Below are positions 116 to 11,128 of a stretch of 11,588 bases of DNA, one piece after another. The notes under the pieces were generated by a model, which worked only from the letters and a program-made list of their open reading frames with translations, made no database searches and was not told the DNA's origin. Source of the stretch: Pseudomonadota bacterium (GTDB taxonomy: Bacteria; Pseudomonadota; Gammaproteobacteria; Acidiferrobacterales; UBA6901); NCBI GenBank assembly GCA_021785795.1, contig JAJYEK010000004.1, positions 1 through 11,588 on the forward strand, written 5' to 3'. Every line of letters starts with the position of its first letter. Position 1 is the stretch's first letter. The position numbers and the translations under genes are program-made.

Positions 116-1612
116 CTAATTTCCGTCGTGCTGAGCCAGTCCACAGGCTGCCAGCGAAGCTGCGCGAAATATGGCCCGCGCCTTGTTCATCGTCTCGTTC
201 CATTCGTTGCGTGCCACCGAGTCGGCAACGATGCCCGCGCCGGCCTGAATGTGGAGCCTGCCTCGGGCAATGACAGCGGTACGTATGGCGATGGCTGTAT
301 CCATCGCGCCATCCCACCCGATGTACCCGACTGCGCCCGAATAGATTCCACGCTTGACCGGCTCGAGCTCGTCAATGATCTCCATCGCGCGTACTTTGGG
401 AGCGCCGCTTACTGTGCCGGCTGGAAATGTCGCCCGCAGCACGTCGATGGCATCCAGTCCGCGCCTTAACTCACCGGTAATGTTGGAGACGATGTGCATC
501 ACGTGCGAATAGCGCTCGATGACCATCCTGTCGGTGACCTTCACGCTGCCGATGCTTGCGACACGCCCGACATCGTTGCGCCCCAGGTCAATCAGCATGA
601 GATGCTCGGCGAGTTCCTTGGGGTCGGACAGCAGATCATGCTCCAGCGTCTTGTCCTCCTGCTCGTCGCGTCCACGAGGCCTGGTTCCCGCGATCGGCCG
701 CAGCGTCACGCCCCCGCCCTCGAGACGAACCAGGATCTCCGGCGAAGATCCGACGACATGGATGTCGCCCAAGTCCATGTAGTACATGTACGGCGATGGG
801 TTGAGAGTGCGCAGCGCGCGGTAGAGATCAAGGGGTGGGTGTTCGAACGGAACCGACAGGCGCTGGGACAGAACAACTTGCATGATATCGCCTGCACGGA
901 TGTATTCTTTTGACTTTTCTACCGCCGCCTCGAATCCGGACTGGGTAAAGCCCGACACAAAGTCCTCCTCCCGAAGGCGCATGTCCGGCGACCCGCGTTG
1001 CGGCAGCGGCAGACCTTCGTGCAGGCGACCCACCAGCTCATCGAGGCGACGCACGCCCTTCTCGTAGGCATGCTCTACCGCAGGATCAACGTGAATGACG
1101 GCATACAGCTTCCCGGCAAGGTTGTCGAACACGACAACCTCATCAGACACCATCAGGATGATGTCCGGGCCGCCGATTTCGTCGGGCTTGTTGCTGCCTC
1201 CAAGCACCGGCTCTATGAGCCGCACGGTATCGTAACCGAAGCATCCCACCAGACCACCCGTGAACCGGGGGAGTCCGGGGAGTGCCGGCACCGAATAGCG
1301 CCTACGAAAGCTGCGGAGGTAGTCGAGCGGATCGCCCACGGTCGCGCGCTCGACAATCACGCCATCCCGTTCGATGCTGATTTCATTGCCAAACGCACGC
1401 ACAACGGTCCGGCACGGCAACCCGATGATGGAGTATCTTCCCCATTTCTCGCCACCCTGCACCGACTCAAACAGATAGCTGTATCGGCCGCGTGCCAGCT
1501 TGAGGTAGGTACTGAGCGGAGTATCGAGATCCGCCAGAACCTCGCGCATGAGCGGAATGCTATTCGCGCCCCGGAGGGCGTAACGGTCAAATTCGGACTT
1601 GCTGAGCAACAT
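116..1612 (-). CDS. trpE: Anthranilate synthase component I
   Basis: This 498-residue protein converts chorismate and ammonia to anthranilate, the first committed step of tryptophan synthesis, as a cytoplasmic complex with TrpG. The length is typical. The N-terminal domain starts with the family pattern [21 protein letters not shown] (residues 19-39). It is followed by LFES at 47-50, the place of the LLES tryptophan feedback site; the serine is kept and a Phe replaces one Leu. The chorismate-binding domain has PIAGTRPRG (about residue 310), LIDLGRND (about 345), [10 protein letters not shown] (about 400) and a C-terminal [10 protein letters not shown]. These separate it from salicylate or isochorismate synthases, and the adjacent trpG supports trpE over pabB. 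The ATG at 1612 is the only sensible start. Its GGTGGTGA ribosome-binding sequence lies inside a long inverted-repeat structure that fills the spacer from gph, so translation may be controlled by RNA folding. Confidence 0.97.
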
Positions 1613-1741
1613 GGGTCACCACCGGATCACAGAAACAGAGAAAGCGCACTGACATCTCGGAACGCCTGTACCATCGTTCCAGCAGATGTACTCCCTTCTC
1701 TGTCATGCGTGATATGGCCAAATCCGGTGGTCGCGCACCCT
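1613..1741 (-). promoter_or_regulatory. Nested inverted-repeat structure filling the gph-trpE spacer
   Basis: Read by eye, the spacer contains stems that nest without conflict. They are 1613-1616/1737-1740 (4 bp), 1618-1627/1722-1731 (10 bp, ACCACCGGAT with its exact complement), 1628-1630/1709-1711 (3 bp), 1635-1642/1696-1703 (8 bp, ACAGAGAA), 1652-1657/1684-1689 (6 bp, ACATCT) and 1659-1664/1675-1680 (6 bp, GGAACG) around a 10-base loop. That is about 37 pairs, all Watson-Crick. In the transcript the structure begins two bases after the gph stop codon and ends at the trpE ATG, so the ribosome-binding stretch is base-paired. No T-run follows a stem, so it is not a classical terminator. No short frame with consecutive Trp codons is seen. 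It could be a trpE leader or a palindromic mobile repeat. Confidence 0.6.
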
Positions 1742-2455
1742 TTACAGGTACCGCCTCAGGTAGTGGGGTAATTCCGCCAGCGAGTCGATCACCGCATCCG
1801 GCCCGGACCCGCGTATGTCTTGTCCGTGATTATACCCATACGTAACGCAAATAACAGGCATCTGCGCCGCACGGGCCGCCTGCACGTCGCTTCGCGAATC
1901 ACCCACGAGGACACCCTGGTCCGGGCGGATACCGAAATGGGCGCAGGCGTGCTGCAGCGGCAGGGGATCCGGCTTCTTCCGTGGCAGACTGTCCCCGCTG
2001 AGAACCAGCCCGAAGTACTGCTGCAGCCGCAGATCGCGCAGCAGCGGATCCGTAAACACCTTGGCCTTGTTGGTGATGCAGGCAAGATCAAACCCCATGC
2101 TCTTTAGCTGCTCGAGCCCTTCCACCACCCCCGGAAACGGGCGGCTCTGCAGCGAAACACAGGCCGCATAGTGCTTCTGGTAGAGCGTGTACGCCCGCTC
2201 GAACAGCGCCGGATCGGGCTCGCCCTCCATTTCCCCGGTCAACGCCCGCTTCACCAGGCGCGGGACACCGTTTCCGATCCAGGCCTCGATGTCCACGACG
2301 TCGCGCTTGGGGCGGCCGAGATCCGCGAGCATGCCGTTTGCGGCTGCCGCCAGGTCTGGCGCGGTATGCACCAGCGTCCCGTCGAGGTCTATCATCACCA
2401 TTTTGACCACGAGCGGAAAGCGGGAACCGTCTGGTTGCGGCTGCGTTGCGCTCAT
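1742..2455 (-). CDS. gph: Phosphoglycolate phosphatase, HAD superfamily
   Basis: This 237-residue cytoplasmic enzyme dephosphorylates 2-phosphoglycolate. The compound arises from DNA repair and, in autotrophs, from the oxygenase activity of Rubisco. All four HAD motifs are visible. DLDGTL at 23-28 has nucleophile D23 and acid/base D25; ITNK has T128; a Lys pair at 160-161 precedes PDP; VGDSRSD at 184-190 has D186 and D190. The helical cap between motifs I and II matches the Gph/PGP subfamily. The start at 2455 is chosen because its ATG overlaps the rpe stop in an ATGA and has an AGGG sequence just upstream. This gives about 18 residues before the core, and M19 is an alternative start. The order rpe-gph-trpE supports Gph over other HAD phosphatases. 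The exact substrate cannot be proved from sequence. Confidence 0.93.
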
Positions 2456-3123
2456 TTTGCCCTGGCCAGTTCCGCGCGCATCTTGGCGATCGTCGCCTTG
2501 TAGTCGGACGTGCTGAAAATAGCCGAACCTGCAACAAACGTATCGGCACCGGCCGCGGCTATTTCGCGGATATTGTCGACTTTCACGCCCCCGTCGATTT
2601 CGAGCCGGATGCTGCGGCCGCTGTCGTCTATGAGGCGCCGCGCTTCGCGCAGCTTGTCCAGGCTCGAACGGATGAAACTCTGGCCCCCGAAACCCGGGTT
2701 GACTGACATCAGAAGCACCATGTCAATCTTGTCCAAGACATACTTCAGGTAGTCGAGCGGAGTCGCCGGATTGAACACGAGACCGGACTTGCACCCTGAA
2801 TCCCGTACCAGCTGCAGTGATCGGTCAATATGTTCAGTTGCTTCCGGGTGGAAGGTGATATAGGTGGCGCCGGCTTTGGCGAAATCCGGAATGATGCGAT
2901 CCACCGGCTTCACCATCAGATGCACGTCGATGTCGGCCGTGACGCCGTGCTTACGCAGCGCTTCGCAAACCAACGGACCAATCGTCAGATTGGGCACATA
3001 GTGATTGTCCATGACATCGAAGTGAACGATATCGGCGCCGGCTGCCAGCACCGCCGTGACGTCATCACCGAGCCGGGCAAAGTCCGCCGACAGGATCGAC
3101 GGGGCAATCTTGTAATCAAGCAT
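2452..3123 (-). CDS. rpe: Ribulose-phosphate 3-epimerase
   Basis: This 223-residue TIM-barrel enzyme interconverts ribulose 5-phosphate and xylulose 5-phosphate in the pentose phosphate pathway, and in the Calvin cycle if the host is autotrophic. The metal and catalytic residues are all present. APSILSADF is at 7-15, and HFDVMD at 34-39 has H34 and D36. H68 lies in VHLMV and D177 in EIDGGV. The phosphate loop is formed by NPGFGGQSF (142-150) and the C-terminal [13 protein letters not shown]. The ATG at 3123 has GAGGA six bases upstream, a strong ribosome-binding site. It is the first gene of the leftward rpe-gph-trpE-trpG series and overlaps gph by four bases, so the two are probably translationally coupled. 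The family is very well conserved and no other identity is likely. Confidence 0.98.
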
Positions 3124-3453
3124 AGGTTTTCCTCAATCCTGCTGCCTAGGGACGTCCGCAAAGGGCAGTCATGCGCTGCCCAAAAACGGCGACTTTACCG
3201 GATCACGCAGAAGTTTTCAGCCGACGGGCGTCATCGCATCTTCGGCATGCATCTAACCGACTGAAAAATCCCGGAAGATTTTCCCGCAGCCCGGGCACGG
3301 ATATTGCAATGCTTCTCGCATAATCGCTCCCATGAGCTTCCGGGGAGCGGCCAAATAACAAGGCACCGGCGACAACCCTCGGGGGGCGGATCGCTGCAAC
3401 TGCCCATCGTGACGTTCCGCCTCTTGGCGGCGTCCAGCCGGCTTAGGATTGTC
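3124..3453. other. Divergent non-coding region between rpe and the DUF2892 gene
   Basis: These 330 bases hold no convincing gene; frames crossing them are shadows of neighbours. They should contain the rpe promoter (leftward) and the promoter of the DUF2892-GGDEF pair (rightward), but no pair of boxes with proper spacing stands out. A CATAAT at 3319-3324 could be a -10 box, without a good -35. Visible symmetry includes GGGCAG/CTGCCC at 3163-3168/3176-3181, about 40 bases before rpe, a possible operator. Towards the rightward gene there are a 7-bp hairpin at 3325-3331/3343-3349 and a 9-bp hairpin at 3411-3434 (GACG-TT-CCGCC, TCTT loop, GGCGG-CGTC). The latter lies just before the Shine-Dalgarno sequence at 3445-3448. 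Confidence 0.55.
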
Positions 3454-3849
3454 ATGACTGAACGCATGTTTCGCCTCGTCTTCGCGTCGGTTCTGCTCGT
3501 GGGGCTCTATTTCGGCCTGCGCTTTGTCGTTTACGGATTGATCGCGCTGTCTCTTTTTCGGGGCGTGGCCCCGTGGCGGATCGGCAACATGCCAGCGCGC
3601 CTGCGCCCACGCGGTCGCGCACATTCGGGCCGCGACCTGAGCGCACTGGCGTCACATCCGGTCCGGATGAATTTCGAGGCAGAACGGGCGGCGTCCATAC
3701 TCGCTGCGGTGACCATCTTCTGCGGAAGCTTCCTGTTTGCCGGTCATCTGTGGTTCCTTCCTTGGTTCGTTGCCTTTGCGTTCTTTGGGGCAGGTTTAAG
3801 CGGAGTCTGTCCAATGGTCTTGTGTCTGAAATGGGCCGGACTGAAATGA
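3454..3849 (+). CDS. Small inner-membrane protein with C-terminal DUF2892-like domain
   Basis: This is a 131-residue protein of unknown function. Residues about 7-35 form a long hydrophobic stretch (one or two membrane segments), followed by a basic, probably cytoplasmic loop at 48-60. Residues about 72-131 resemble DUF2892: the lead-in MNFEAERAASILA, two hydrophobic segments at about 79-97 and 99-117, then a GVCPMVLCLKW-type ending like the family's FTGFCP...L.K.G. DUF2892 is best known as the membrane half of YgaP-type proteins, where it is fused to a rhodanese; no rhodanese domain is present here. The ATG at 3454 is preferred over an upstream in-frame ATG at 3304, because AGGA lies five bases before it and the extra N-terminus looks non-coding. 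Its stop overlaps the next gene in an ATGA, suggesting coupled translation. The family call is by eye. Confidence 0.75.
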   Translation: MTERMFRLVFASVLLVGLYFGLRFVVYGLIALSLFRGVAPWRIGNMPARLRPRGRAHSGRDLSALASHPVRMNFEAERAASILAAVTIFCGSFLFAGHLWFLPWFVAFAFFGAGLSGVCPMVLCLKWAGLK

Positions 3850-6441: not shown

Positions 6442-7419
6442 TCAGGAAACGGCCTGGTAGTACAGGTTCTGCGGGTGGTTCGCCTGGGCAAAAAAGAACC
6501 AGCGCTCCACCAGCAGGCCGAAATACTGCACGACAAAGGCTATCAGCACCAACGCCGGAATCCGCAGCATCATGCCCCACCATAGCAACAATACCGGAAG
6601 CGGAAACACCAGCAGCAGAAACAACCATTTCAAAGAACGGAGCAGCCCTGGGCCGACGCCATGAAAGAACTCGCGTGTGTTGAACGACCCGCCCATGGAC
6701 CCTTGCGCCATCTGGGTGATCCTGGCGTGACGCACGCCAATGGCGGTCTGGGGCGAAGACTTGTGGCGGATCCGGGCATTGCGGATTAGCGAGGCAGACC
6801 GCGTGACGAGCGCGGCGGCCGTGATCACGGTTGCCCAGGTAGCCAGGAATCCTTCCAGCTGCGGCGACTGGTACGCAGTGTAGGCACTTGCGAGTACGAA
6901 TCCCGACGCCAGTCCAAACAGCAGGTAGTTCATCACCGTAAGCCATGTCGCCCATTCCTGGAGGAACCGGATGCAGGCATAGACCATGCCGGTGCAGAGG
7001 AACAACGCGAGCGTGGCCACCACCGCCACAGCTCCTACGACCAGCGGCACGATATCGTGCAAGGCACCGCGTCCGTCAGGCAGCACCACCGTCCAGCGCA
7101 GGTAGTGCACCAGACCGTAGAGAATAATGGTCCCGGTGGCAACGGGCAGCGCAATCACCTCGCGCGACAGCCACGACGTACGCCACTTCGTGGCCGCCCG
7201 CCAGGCCCGCTCCGGGTGGCCCAGGTGGAAAAACGATGCCACCAGGCCAGCGCAGAGAAAGGTCGCAGCGATCACGCTGCCGCGGACAAAGAATGCCGCA
7301 TTCTGGGCCGGCAACAGTCCGATGCTGGCGTAGACCTCAGTCGTGAACAGCGCGAGAAACAGCCCCTGGCCCACGCCGATAAGGGTTGTCAGAAGAACTA
7401 CTGAAAATGCTGGACGCAT
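6442..7419 (-). CDS. soeC: Sulfite dehydrogenase membrane anchor, DmsC family
   Basis: This 325-residue integral membrane protein has about eight predicted segments, at roughly 6-26, 45-65, 86-106, 123-148, 159-182, 190-209, 263-281 and 284-303. The motif HLGHPERAWRA at 65-75 and the following WRTSWLSRE at 79-87 are typical of the DmsC-type anchor (as opposed to NrfD/PsrC). Established SoeABC complexes use this anchor type to pass electrons from the iron-sulfur subunit to the quinone pool. It lies downstream of soeB on the same strand. The ATG at 7419 has GGAG five bases upstream. Unlike the tight soeA-soeB junction, an 86-base spacer with a stable-looking hairpin separates it from soeB. The name depends on the operon as much as on this protein, since DmsC-type anchors also occur in DMSO reductases. 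Confidence 0.9.
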   Translation of the reverse strand: MRPAFSVVLLTTLIGVGQGLFLALFTTEVYASIGLLPAQNAAFFVRGSVIAATFLCAGLVASFFHLGHPERAWRAATKWRTSWLSREVIALPVATGTIILYGLVHYLRWTVVLPDGRGALHDIVPLVVGAVAVVATLALFLCTGMVYACIRFLQEWATWLTVMNYLLFGLASGFVLASAYTAYQSPQLEGFLATWATVITAAALVTRSASLIRNARIRHKSSPQTAIGVRHARITQMAQGSMGGSFNTREFFHGVGPGLLRSLKWLFLLLVFPLPVLLLWWGMMLRIPALVLIAFVVQYFGLLVERWFFFAQANHPQNLYYQAVS

Positions 7420-7447
7420 AACGACTCCGATAGCAGATGGCGAACGG

Positions 7448-7492
7448 ACGGCGAACCCGGTTTCGAACCGGGTCGCGTCGGAAAATCGCCGT
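7448..7492 (-). promoter_or_regulatory. Two-part hairpin in the soeB-soeC spacer
   Basis: An inner perfect 8-bp stem (ACCCGGTT at 7455-7462 with AACCGGGT at 7466-7473, three-base loop) stacks directly on an outer perfect 7-bp stem (ACGGCGA at 7448-7454 with TCGCCGT at 7486-7492). A 12-base bulge at 7474-7485 sits on one side only. The 15 pairs lie after the soeB stop and before the soeC ribosome-binding site. No T-run follows in the direction of transcription, so it is not a standard terminator. Likely roles are mRNA processing or stability, or setting the soeB:soeC ratio; these are inferences. A GGCGAAC direct repeat (7439-7445 and 7450-7456) overlaps it. Confidence 0.55.
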
Positions 7493-7505
7493 TACCCGCA
7501 GACAC

Positions 7506-8237
7506 TCACCAGCTGGTTACATCGTCCAGCGATGGATCGGTAATTGGCGGTTTGGGGAGCTTGGCCTCCTTTTTCAGAGGATTGGCCGCGCGAATCAGCT
7601 CGTCATCATGAATCTTCATGCGCGTCTTGCGCCGTGGCAAATAGTGGTTAGCCGGCCTCGTGCCCCACTCTGGCATAAGCGCATAGCCACCAGACTCCCG
7701 GATCGCGACCGAAACCTGCGAGTCGGGATCATGCACATCGCCGAACAGCCGCGCATTGGTCGGACAGGCCAGTACGCAAGCCGGTCTGCGCTCTGATTCC
7801 GGCAGCGTCCGGTCATAGATGCGATCCACACACAAGGTGCATTTTTTCATGACTTTCTGGTGCTCGTCTATTTCGCGTGCGCCGTACGGACAGGCCCACG
7901 AACAGTATTTGCAGCCGATGCACTTGTTGTAGTCCACGAGTACGATTCCATCTTCCGGCCGCTTGTAGCTTGCGCCGGTAGGACATACCGGAACGCATGG
8001 CGGATCTTCGCAGTGCAGGCAGGATTTCGGAAAATGCACGGTCTCGGTGCGCGGAAACTCACCCACTTCGAATGTCTGAACCCGGTTGAAGAACGTACCC
8101 GTAGGATCGGCGCCATACGGCCTGTCGTCTGACATGGAAACGGCTGCTCCGGACGTGTTCCATTCCTTGCAGCTGGTAACACAGGCATGACAGCCCACGC
8201 ACACATTGAGGTCGATTACCAGAGCGAGCTGCGTCAT
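7506..8237 (-). CDS. soeB: Sulfite dehydrogenase iron-sulfur subunit with four [4Fe-4S] clusters
   Basis: This 243-residue ferredoxin-like subunit carries electrons from the molybdenum subunit to the membrane anchor. Sixteen cysteines in four groups fit four [4Fe-4S] clusters: C13, C16, C19, C23; C73, C76, C81, C85; C106, C109, C112, C116; and C133, C136, C154, C158. In this family the groups exchange ligands between paired clusters. The pattern CVGCHACVTSCKEWN and the CP-containing second and third groups are typical of the DmsB/PsrB/SoeB family. A tail of about 80 residues after the last cysteine is rich in charged residues and Pro. The start at 8237 is chosen because its ATG overlaps the soeA stop (ATGA) and AGGGGG lies upstream. 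A frame extension to 8273 would lie within soeA. No signal peptide is present. Confidence 0.95.
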   Translation of the reverse strand: MTQLALVIDLNVCVGCHACVTSCKEWNTSGAAVSMSDDRPYGADPTGTFFNRVQTFEVGEFPRTETVHFPKSCLHCEDPPCVPVCPTGASYKRPEDGIVLVDYNKCIGCKYCSWACPYGAREIDEHQKVMKKCTLCVDRIYDRTLPESERRPACVLACPTNARLFGDVHDPDSQVSVAIRESGGYALMPEWGTRPANHYLPRRKTRMKIHDDELIRAANPLKKEAKLPKPPITDPSLDDVTSW

Positions 8238-11128
8238 GGCTTTTTCCCCCTGCCAGCGAAATACGCGAGCCACGGCCGCCGCTGGCCAACACCGGGCGGC
8301 GGGGCAATCGGCTGGAACTGCGGATAAGTCTGCTGCGGCTCTCCGGGCGCGGCCTTGTACACGCGCACCCGCACATCGTACCAGCCGGCCTGGCCGGTCA
8401 CCGGATCGGAATTGGACAGATGCACCCCGTCCGCAGCGACGGGAAGTTCCTCTGAAATCAGGTGATTAAGCAGAAACCCCTTCTGAGATTCGTTAGCGTT
8501 CGGCTCGAGATTCCATGCGCCCGACTGCTTGCCGATGGCGTTCCAGGTCCAGACCGTGCCCGGCTCTACCGCCTCGCTGAAGCGGCACATGCAGCGCACA
8601 CGCCCCCACATCGACTCCACCCACACCCAATCTCCGTCGCGCAGCCCTTCCTGCGATCCCAGCTGCGGGCTCAAGTAGAGATAGTTATGGGCATGTATCT
8701 GGCGCAGCCACGCATTCTGCGAATCCCAGGAATGGTACATGGCCATGGGCCGCTGGGTGACTGCGTTGAGGGGGTACTTGCGACGGTCGGTGCGCTGGGT
8801 CTCAAGCGGCTCGTGGTAAAACGGCAACGGATCGAAATACGTCGCAATGCGCGCGCGCAGGCGTTCCGGCGGCTGCTTGCCGGAAGTCCGGCCCTGGGCA
8901 GCGAGACGGAATTTCTGTAAAACTTCCGAATAAAGCTGGATCAGTATGGGCTCGGCATAACGGGTGAGGCGATGGCGCTGTGCCCACTCCAGGTAGCCCT
9001 TGTTCCAGTTGCGCAGGTACTGATATGAACGCGGCAATCTGTAGTGGTAGACACAATTGTTCTTCTCGTACATTTCCCATTGACGCGGATTGGGTTCGCC
9101 CCTCATGAACTTCTCGCCCCCTGTCCCGCGCCAGCCCGCCAGAAACCCGATGCCCGATCCGGGTTCGGTCTCATAATTCACGACGAAATCGGGGTAATCG
9201 CGGAATTTGCGGGTGCCATCATCATTTACGAATGCCGGAAGGCGCAGGCGCGACGCTACTTCGATCAAGACCTCCTGGAACGGTCGACACTGGCCGGTAG
9301 GTGGCACCACCGGGACACGTACGGAGTCAACCGGACCGTCGAATTCCGAAATCGGCCGATCAAGGATGCTCATCACATCATGGCGTTCAAGGTAAGTAGT
9401 ATCCGGAAGGACCAGATCGGCGAATGCAACCATTTCCGACTCAAAGGCATCACAGACCACCAGGAAAGGGATCTTGTATTCGCCATCCTCGCGCCGGTCG
9501 TTAAGCATGCGACGGATTTCTGCCGTGTTCATGGCGGAGTTCCATGCCATGTTCGACATGAAAATGAGCAGGGTATCAATTGGGTAGGGATCTCCGCGCC
9601 AGGCGTTGGTGATGACATTGTGCATCAACCCGTGGACCGACAGCGGATATTCCCAGGAGAATGCCTTGTCTATGCGCACCGGCTCGCCTTCCTGATCCAC
9701 GAACAGATCGTCGGGCTCCGCCGGCCAGCCGAGCGCCATGCCATCCAAGACCGAGTCTGGCTGCACTGCCTCGGGTCCGCGTGGCGTCTTGGCGCAAGGC
9801 GGAATCGGGCGCGGAAACGGCGCCTTGTGACGGAAACCACCCGGACGGTCGATGGTTCCAAGCAGGCTCATCAGCACCGAGAGGGCGCGGATTGCATGAA
9901 ATCCGTTCGAATGCGCCGCCAGGCCGCGCATCGCATGAAACGCGACCGGATTGCCAGTTACCGTATCATGCTCCGCGCCCCACGAATCAGTCCAAGCGAT
10001 GGGCAGTTCGATCCGGTGATCGCGCGCGGTGACGCCCATTTCGTTGGCAAGCCGGCGGATCGTTTCCGCTGGGACCCCAGTTATTCCTGCGGCCCACTCG
10101 GGTGTATAATCCTTGACACGGTTTACAAGAAGTTGGAATGCTGGCTTGACCGGCGTGCCGTCTTTCAGGGTGAATTCGCCAAGAAGAAATGGATCAGCTC
10201 CCTCAGTATGGGACCTAACCGGCTGGCCACTGAGCCTATCCCACCAGAGCTGATCCTGGGGATCGAAACATCCTTCCTCGTGCGGTTCGCCCGTACGCAC
10301 CAGCAGACCGGACCGCGGTCCGTCAGCGGTCAGATCCACGAGTTGCGGTCCATTCGTATAACGCACGACGAAATCGCGGTCATACAGCCCCTGACGGATG
10401 ATTTCGTGAATCAGCGCTAACAGCAACGCGCCGTCCGTGCCGGGCTTGATCGGCACCCATTCGTCGGCAATTGCCGAATAGCCGGTGCGCACGGGATTGA
10501 TTGATACGAATCGCCCGCCGTTGCGCTTGAACTTGGATATGGCGATCTTTAGCGGATTGGAATGATGGTCCTCTGCCGTACCGATCATGACGAACAGCTT
10601 GGCTCTATCAAGATCGGGCCCGCCGAACTCCCAAAACGAGCCTCCGATCGTGTAGATCATGCCTGCTGCCATGTTGACCGAACAGAACCCGCCGTGTGCC
10701 GCATAGTTCGGCGTACCGAACTGCCTCGCGAACAGGCTGGTCAGCGCCTGCATCTGGTCACGGCCGGTAAAAAGCGCAAACTTCTTTGGATCGCTCGAAC
10801 GGATCTGCGCAAGCCGTTCCGTCATGAGCGCAAACGCTTCGTCCCAACTGATCTCCTCGAACTCGTTGGCGCCGCGCTCTGCGCCTGCTTTGCGACGCAG
10901 CGGCTTGGTGAGGCGCGCCGGGGAGTATTGCTTCATTATTCCGGATGCACCTTTCGCGCAGATCACTCCTTTATTGAGCGGGTGATCGGGATTGCCCTCG
11001 ATGTAACGGACCTGACCATCGCGCAGATGCACGCGTATGCCGCACCGGCAGGCACACATATAGCAGGTTGTATTTTTGGTTTCCGAAACCCCGCTGGGAA
11101 CGGGTGACGTATCGGTTGAAATATTCAT
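8234..11128 (-). CDS. soeA: Sulfite dehydrogenase molybdopterin catalytic subunit
   Basis: This 964-residue member of the DMSO reductase (Mo-bis-MGD) superfamily is the catalytic subunit for oxidising sulfite to sulfate. The N-terminal [4Fe-4S] site is CYMCACRC (C22, C25, C29, with C27 extra) plus C57 in GVICAKG. GGFCSVN at 146-152 puts a Cys (C149) where the family has its molybdenum ligand, as in Psr/Phs-type enzymes. The C-terminal molybdopterin dinucleotide-binding domain starts near residue 790 and includes RDGDWVWVES and NEPNANES-like sequence (here NLEPNANES). There is no twin-arginine signal. That fits the cytoplasm-facing SoeABC of purple sulfur bacteria and argues against exported Psr, Phs or DMSO reductases. 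soeB starts within its stop codon. The start at 11128 lacks a strong Shine-Dalgarno sequence but is supported by the close promoter and the N-terminal Cys motif. Confidence 0.92.
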   Translation of the reverse strand: MNISTDTSPVPSGVSETKNTTCYMCACRCGIRVHLRDGQVRYIEGNPDHPLNKGVICAKGASGIMKQYSPARLTKPLRRKAGAERGANEFEEISWDEAFALMTERLAQIRSSDPKKFALFTGRDQMQALTSLFARQFGTPNYAAHGGFCSVNMAAGMIYTIGGSFWEFGGPDLDRAKLFVMIGTAEDHHSNPLKIAISKFKRNGGRFVSINPVRTGYSAIADEWVPIKPGTDGALLLALIHEIIRQGLYDRDFVVRYTNGPQLVDLTADGPRSGLLVRTGEPHEEGCFDPQDQLWWDRLSGQPVRSHTEGADPFLLGEFTLKDGTPVKPAFQLLVNRVKDYTPEWAAGITGVPAETIRRLANEMGVTARDHRIELPIAWTDSWGAEHDTVTGNPVAFHAMRGLAAHSNGFHAIRALSVLMSLLGTIDRPGGFRHKAPFPRPIPPCAKTPRGPEAVQPDSVLDGMALGWPAEPDDLFVDQEGEPVRIDKAFSWEYPLSVHGLMHNVITNAWRGDPYPIDTLLIFMSNMAWNSAMNTAEIRRMLNDRREDGEYKIPFLVVCDAFESEMVAFADLVLPDTTYLERHDVMSILDRPISEFDGPVDSVRVPVVPPTGQCRPFQEVLIEVASRLRLPAFVNDDGTRKFRDYPDFVVNYETEPGSGIGFLAGWRGTGGEKFMRGEPNPRQWEMYEKNNCVYHYRLPRSYQYLRNWNKGYLEWAQRHRLTRYAEPILIQLYSEVLQKFRLAAQGRTSGKQPPERLRARIATYFDPLPFYHEPLETQRTDRRKYPLNAVTQRPMAMYHSWDSQNAWLRQIHAHNYLYLSPQLGSQEGLRDGDWVWVESMWGRVRCMCRFSEAVEPGTVWTWNAIGKQSGAWNLEPNANESQKGFLLNHLISEELPVAADGVHLSNSDPVTGQAGWYDVRVRVYKAAPGEPQQTYPQFQPIAPPPGVGQRRPWLAYFAGRGKKP

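Follow-up and report, generated by a model that had tools for sequence, protein, structure and literature searches.

In the classical trp leader attenuator of the E. coli type, a short leader ORF with Trp codons precedes trpE and the position of the ribosome on this ORF affects the structure of the RNA. A passage in one study places the trpE of Shewanella under RF00513, the Rfam family of this leader (PMC2659441), and part of another describes gammaproteobacterial trp operons as being under attenuation, citing Panina 2001 (PMC5343134). For the trpGDC genes of P. aeruginosa, an excerpt of PMC8297930 describes premature 3' ends close to a possible uORF and refers to Olekhnovich and Gussin 2001 for attenuation of trpE in P. 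putida. Attenuators may also act on translation: according to a section of PMC5118997, the ermC-type attenuators of resistance genes combine a leader ORF with a stem-loop hiding the next ribosome-binding site (RBS), and stalling opens the stem-loop. In the mycobacterial cysteine-codon uORF attenuators of Canestrari 2020, as presented in a portion of PMC9031893, translation downstream depends on codons of a short ORF that specify the amino acid in short supply, and for Actinobacteria a fragment of PMC1262725 covers both Trp-codon leaders with terminators and T-boxes that hide the RBS. Further related passages are contained in PMC2965389 and PMC9094748.

Here, we report a nested hairpin that fills the spacer between gph and trpE in a gammaproteobacterium and correlate its form with that of the corresponding spacers across an order. 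As judged from sequence, the hairpin hides the start of trpE, and a short reading frame that includes a Trp codon runs through it; the spacer therefore probably acts as a switch that senses tryptophan, one whose general kind is known but whose form is unusual. We favour, with reasonable though not strong confidence, the reading that it is a trp leader controlling the translation of trpE inside an rpe-gph-trpE operon, and to the same degree that it would work as a ribosome-mediated trp attenuator through hiding of the trpE RBS and not through a terminator. No description of this leader in this order was found in a literature search that covered subscription papers thinly, and an earlier description is possible.

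A nested hairpin between gph and trpE

The window, that is the whole stretch of 11,588 nucleotides that was analysed, carries on its minus strand and in this order rpe (3123-2452), gph (2455-1742), a spacer of 129 bases and trpE (1612-116). The spacer is bounded by the gph stop codon at 1744-1742 and the trpE ATG at 1612-1610. The features of the locus are the following:

2452..3123, minus strand: rpe, ribulose-phosphate 3-epimerase (TIGR01163, above the NCBIfam cut-off)
1742..2455, minus strand: gph, phosphoglycolate phosphatase (NF009695, above the NCBIfam cut-off)
116..1612, minus strand: trpE, anthranilate synthase component I (TIGR00564, above the NCBIfam cut-off)
1613..1741, minus strand: gph-trpE spacer, one nested hairpin (folds and shuffles)
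1722..1731, minus strand: 5' arm of the outer helix, ACCACCGGAT, pairing with 1618-1627 in the fold
1618..1627, minus strand: 3' arm of the outer helix, ATCCGGTGGT, containing most of the trpE Shine-Dalgarno sequence GGUGGUGA
1696..1703, minus strand: 5' arm of the middle helix, pairing with 1642-1635 in the fold
1635..1642, minus strand: 3' arm of the middle helix, from the fold
1659..1689, minus strand: inner hairpin GGAACG/CGTTCC with a Trp codon in its loop, from the fold

Refolding of the minus strand returned, at the same coordinates, all four stems that a first-pass annotation of this DNA had named. These are stems of 10, 8, 6 and 6 bp around a 10-base loop; in the fold of the window the third stem is formed by the ACATCT arm (1689-1684) and 1657-1652 (6 bp), and the innermost stem joins 1680-1675 to 1664-1659. 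The same annotation had the trpE RBS buried in a helix, and the predicted fold agrees, with GGUGGUGA (1623-1616) lying within and adjoining the outer 10-bp stem. The predicted mean unpaired probability of the Shine-Dalgarno region is 0.03, corresponding to an RBS held in the leader hairpin. A scan of 1500-3500 revealed no promoter-like sites; two terminator sites were found in the same interval, neither inside the spacer, and no T-run was present in the gph-trpE spacer of the window. No Rfam family, RF00513 (Trp_leader) included, reached its gathering score in the window or in 12 loci, and none matched 1580-1800 at E<=1. The view that this is not the classical enteric attenuator thus holds as far as tested, and annotation by Rfam alone would miss these leaders because no family matched in the window or the 12 loci scanned.

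Elsewhere in the window, positions 6442-11128 form one block of a molybdopterin oxidoreductase, an iron-sulfur subunit and a membrane protein, in which no NCBIfam cut-off was reached and which we take to resemble a sulfur-compound oxidoreductase. A 131-aa ORF at 3454-3849, beside a GGDEF-EAL gene, is without an NCBIfam match.

Relatives were drawn from a TrpE scan of which the best 80 loci were kept, the nearest among them being L001 with 90% identity. The genome of L001 (G001) led to seven genomes of its family, five with a close trpE, and to 57 genomes of its order, 48 with a TrpE match at E<=1e-150. The order held 49 trpE places; removal of L114 and L125, which lie at contig edges, of L120, with a spacer of 34 nt, and of G017 gave 45, and with the window 46 spacers were analysed: the window and five from its family (118–133 nt), 25 long spacers (103–172 nt, the length for L102 being fixed at 117 by eye) and 15 short ones (54–69 nt). 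A set of other gammaproteobacterial spacers comprised the 53 of 79 loci in which gph was found and the spacer measured 60–300 nt; L003 and L122 are apparently the same contig, with identical length and spacer, so that one of the 53 loci is also in the order set.

The fold of the window spacer reached −54.4 kcal/mol against −46.6 (sd 3.7) for dinucleotide shuffles, 6 of 200 of which were equally good (z −2.08). For the spacer extended by six bases z was −2.47 and 4 of 200 shuffles were equally good. The structure had been described as far more ordered than expected by chance, which is overstated for the window sequence alone, where the excess is moderate. Across the 46 spacers the mean z in the shuffle comparison was −3.7, with values below −1 in 44 and below −2 in 30. 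The RBS duplex of the window was matched by 3 of 500 shuffles, and those of L123, L124 and L126 by 190–254 of 500.

Candidate leader reading frames and their Trp codons

The hairpin is traversed by a candidate leader frame:

1587..1706, minus strand: putative leader ORF from the ATG at 1706-1704, with its stop inside trpE (listed with an upstream TTG start; start and translation presumed)
1671..1673, minus strand (1673-1671): UGG of the leader ORF, in CGA-UGG, common to all six family spacers

The frame of this ORF is also open in five family relatives of the window, and no clear Shine-Dalgarno sequence was seen for it. From ATG 1706 the window ORF begins MTEKGVHLLERWYRRS and holds a single UGG; the leader frame contains one Trp codon in the window and L091, and two in L001, L090, L092 and L093. 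In 46/46 spacers an ORF beginning with ATG, GTG or TTG contains one Trp codon or more; one alone is about the shuffle expectation, and the single Trp codon of the window is no more than chance. When spacers were scored for Trp-rich ORFs, defined as at least two Trp in 10 residues of an ATG or GTG ORF inside the spacer, all 25 long spacers outside the family of the window harboured one (shuffle mean 3.9, maximum 8), exemplified by the leader peptide MRHRIRKWSDMRWWRPWAAAVAAV in L100. So did four of the six family spacers (shuffle mean 1.2, maximum 3; the window scores one Trp) and 23 of the 53 other gammaproteobacterial gph-trpE spacers (shuffle mean 3.8, maximum 9). The short clade showed no Trp excess, with 0/15 by the spacer scan (shuffle mean 0.7, maximum 3), an undercount, because the ORF of this clade has its start upstream of the gph stop or on it. 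The first-pass annotation had denied a leader peptide with repeated Trp codons; this is literally correct for the window, with its one Trp codon, but the leader ORF at 1706-1587, which stands out clearly in relatives, had been overlooked, and for the order the statement fails on the long spacers and on the four family spacers with at least two Trp codons.

The hexamer CGATGG was found in 6/6 family, 14/25 long, 15/15 short and 25/53 other spacers, with shuffle means of 0.6, 1.7, 0.8 and 2.3, respectively. Where in frame it encodes Arg-Trp with a CGA codon, and it is strongly over-represented in the gph-trpE spacers of many gammaproteobacteria. Codon-position counts in five family members gave no coding bias, with 13, 15 and 17 variable columns at positions 1, 2 and 3. 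The window also has a GTG-initiated ORF of 11 codons, one of them for Trp, which we discarded as a leader since it is missing from the relatives L090-L092.

Two shorter forms of the spacer occur. In the clade L127-L141 (54–69 nt) the leader ORF overlaps the gph stop and has one CGA-UGG, a small stem CCTTAAGGG/CCCTTGAGG lies over the trpE Shine-Dalgarno sequence, and the folds are weakly better than shuffles in most. Among L041-L072, 19 gph-trpE spacers of 66–72 nt, 18 from Pseudomonas and one from a relative, lack any Trp-codon ORF and leave the trpE RBS open. They differ in this from further Pseudomonas loci, L030, L062 and L064 among them, that have RWRW leaders.

The family leader frames contain no stop ahead of trpE and end 20–26 nt within it. 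Between the UGG and the trpE start this frame is open in 6/6 family spacers (the other two frames in 0/6 and 2/6) and in 14/15 short-clade spacers (the others in 1/15 and 0/15), a pattern that is only suggestive, as these sequences share ancestry and the compared stretch ends within conserved codons of trpE. We entertain, with low confidence, a trp attenuator with a stopless leader ORF, in which CGA-UGG would sense Trp and ribosomes moving past it would cross the trpE RBS and terminate no earlier than within trpE; as part of this doubtful reading, a slow terminating ribosome would thereby be kept from falsely opening the hairpin. If it is true, the avoidance of stops would be a design rule for overlapping-ORF attenuators.

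Predicted hiding of the trpE start and alternative explanations

In the per-species folds an arm near the 5' end of the spacer pairs with the RBS region, as CATGAGA/TCTCATG, CACTGCTGG/CCAGTG or ATTAAGA/TCTTAAT depending on the sub-group; in the family of the window the 5' arm CACCGGAT pairs with the RBS-region arm ATCCGGTG. As the arm sequences differ between sub-groups, we relied on these folds and on a swap of arms among seven sub-group representatives, the sub-groups being our own definition from the RBS arms. The true pairing gave the lowest sum of all 5,040 (−133.2 kcal/mol against a mean of −89.8); taken singly, five of the seven left arms prefer their own partner and those of L117 and L123 do not. 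Within the family alignment, 83% of cells are paired in the named structure, compared with 36–43% after sliding, and seven pairs are altered on both sides, a number reached by 46 of 500 shuffles. The outer helix is paired in 98.3% of cells of family alignment A1, with 8 of its 10 pairs invariant. RNAalifold returned no consensus pairs from a sequence-only alignment of 28 sequences, 18 weak pairs from one of 16, and, from the six family sequences, 49 pairs for which the covariation term was slightly unfavourable. Compensatory change between spacers is found in part: the arm sequences are exchanged between sub-groups and yet pair, but inside the L100 group there is no excess, the double changes at four pairs not exceeding shuffles (102/500). 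A covariance model built from eight leaders of the L100 group (R1) recovers 10 of the remaining 17 long leaders in the correct orientation at E<=0.01, with L001 at 0.086 and L093 at 0.26; it does not find the window or L090-L092 at E<=5.

The RBS opening cost, the predicted cost of opening −13 to +6 at trpE, was 11.7 kcal/mol in the window and 10.6–17.7 in its family. Predicted values were 10.8–19.1 kcal/mol in 22 of the 25 long spacers (5.6, 6.4 and 9.9 in the other three), 8.2–16.2 in the 15 of the short clade, and 3.2–7.2 in the 19 spacers of 66–72 nt without a leader ORF. In other gammaproteobacteria with a leader ORF the predicted cost varies and is low in some (3.6–5.9 in L007, L027, L033 and L034), so hiding of the RBS is not general.

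The effect of stalling was modelled by masking a ribosome footprint on 29 leaders and recomputing the RBS opening cost; L124, L126 and the short clade were excluded from this model and from the arm swap. In the model the free leader had a mean cost of 13.9. Placing the ribosome on the leader start brought this to 7.4, placing it on the best Trp codon to 9.9, and disallowing base pairs that span it to 6.7. A modelled ribosome stalled at Trp codon 7 or 8 lowers the cost by 3.6–15.0 kcal/mol in 14/14 leaders outside the family, and many later Trp codons matter only with pairing across the ribosome barred or a second ribosome behind. With nothing but the footprint masked, the reduction at any Trp codon in the family of the window is 1.8 at most; the window itself gave 9.9 free, 11.8 at the start, 9.9 at Trp and 8.5 with pairing barred, which is almost no switching. 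Our confidence in the mechanism is accordingly higher for the order at large than for the copy in the window. The proposal of a cis-acting leader controlling trpE is supported by comparison, through the order-wide stability, the Trp-rich ORFs, the per-species folds and the swap; its function in the window is less certain, because the single Trp codon is at chance level and hardly any switching is modelled. The predicted opening costs, the modelled effect of stalling outside the family and the near-restriction of model matches to trpE also speak for the favoured reading. Against it stand the lack of consensus pairs over 28 sequences, the L100 double changes, the failure of R1 to find the window, the missing coding bias and leader Shine-Dalgarno sequence, and terminator-like patterns in 8 of the 31 family and long spacers.

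In the favoured mechanism, folding predicts that in free mRNA a long hairpin would pair the trpE RBS with the start of the spacer, and trpE would be poorly translated. The short ORF, which as read from the sequences starts just past gph, climbs the 5' arm and carries the Trp codons, would probably be fed by ribosomes finishing gph, as the distance is short. When Trp is scarce, ribosomes would stall at UGG, the 5' arm could not re-pair and the RBS would be exposed; when Trp is ample, they would pass UGG and the hairpin would re-form. On this reading the family of the window carries a reduced version, in which the leader has one or two Trp codons and its frame continues into trpE.

The spacer had alternatively been suggested to be a small palindromic mobile element absorbed into the operon, and its palindromic form and a length similar to that of known repeats such as ERIC would fit. 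However, at E<=0.01 the window spacer has one match in each of four of the seven family genomes, no second copy in those four and no match in the other three, and a plasmid search gave no match. R1 finds 28 places in 22 of the 57 order genomes, five being opposite-strand matches to the same hairpin, and tblastn placed 25 of the 28 immediately at trpE, but not L161 and L164; the last of the 28 is a second copy (G041). A mobile element is scarcely credible against this distribution; on the evidence of sequence, the gph-trpE structure is a cis-acting leader and not a dispersed repeat. The repeat search inside the window gave nothing beyond one weak match (71%) that covers part of the spacer (D8), and when 10 genomes of the class were searched for the pattern, G001 alone was recovered. 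The second trp leader copy of G041 (L118:3589-3705, 39.7 bits) lies downstream of trpE and, by reading of the sequence, before a 70-codon ORF and an apparent trpG start. A chance structure within a GC-rich spacer, as the z of −2.1 to −2.5 of the window alone might suggest, is very improbable, being opposed by the stability across the order, the excess of Trp codons and the outcome of the arm swap.

Premature termination driven by the same leader ORF, via Rho or through a terminator that lacks a distinct U-tract, would accord with transcription attenuation as a known mode of trp leaders, and a terminator-like hairpin with a T-rich tail is seen in 8 of the 31 family and long spacers (L001, L090, L102, L107, L108, L111, L113 and L122). 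The pattern is absent from the window, from the other 22 of these 31 and from the 15 short spacers, and the RBS itself lies in a helix that co-changes between sub-groups, leaving this mode unlikely. For the species of the window we give somewhat more weight, as a minority view, to a leader that no longer senses Trp, where the hairpin would set a low level of trpE translation or couple it to that of gph. The one Trp codon, the lack of switching in the model and the lack of coding bias are consistent with such a loss; the retention of CGA-UGG and of an open frame up to the trpE start in 6/6 family spacers, and the nearly invariant outer helix, argue against it.

Comparison with known attenuators

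If the translational attenuator that we favour is real, it would extend Trp-codon attenuation to the translation of trpE in a mixed operon, with trpE turned down and rpe and gph untouched. The order would then present a graded set of natural variants, with several Trp codons and an early stop at one end and a lone Trp codon without any stop ahead of trpE at the other, in which the rules of ribosome-driven RBS switches could be tested.

The locus resembles the classical E. coli-type trp leader (RF00513) in having a short Trp-codon ORF ahead of trpE and an RNA structure that a ribosome could change, and differs from it in lying within an operon after gph, in the lack of a T-run terminator in the window and in the placement of the trpE RBS in a stem. 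With the ermC-type translational attenuators it shares a leader ORF and a stem-loop, here predicted, that hides the RBS; unlike in these, the signal would be a lack of charged Trp-tRNA and not a drug, and the leader ORF in the family of the window has no stop before the main gene. The cysteine-codon uORFs of mycobacteria, comparable in that codons for a limiting amino acid govern translation downstream, are leaderless and stand at the start of the mRNA, whereas the present ORF lies in an internal operon spacer. Control by an amino acid through a hidden RBS and not a terminator is also a property of the actinobacterial ileS T-boxes, but these sense tRNA directly and without a leader peptide, while here a translated leader ORF would be the sensor.
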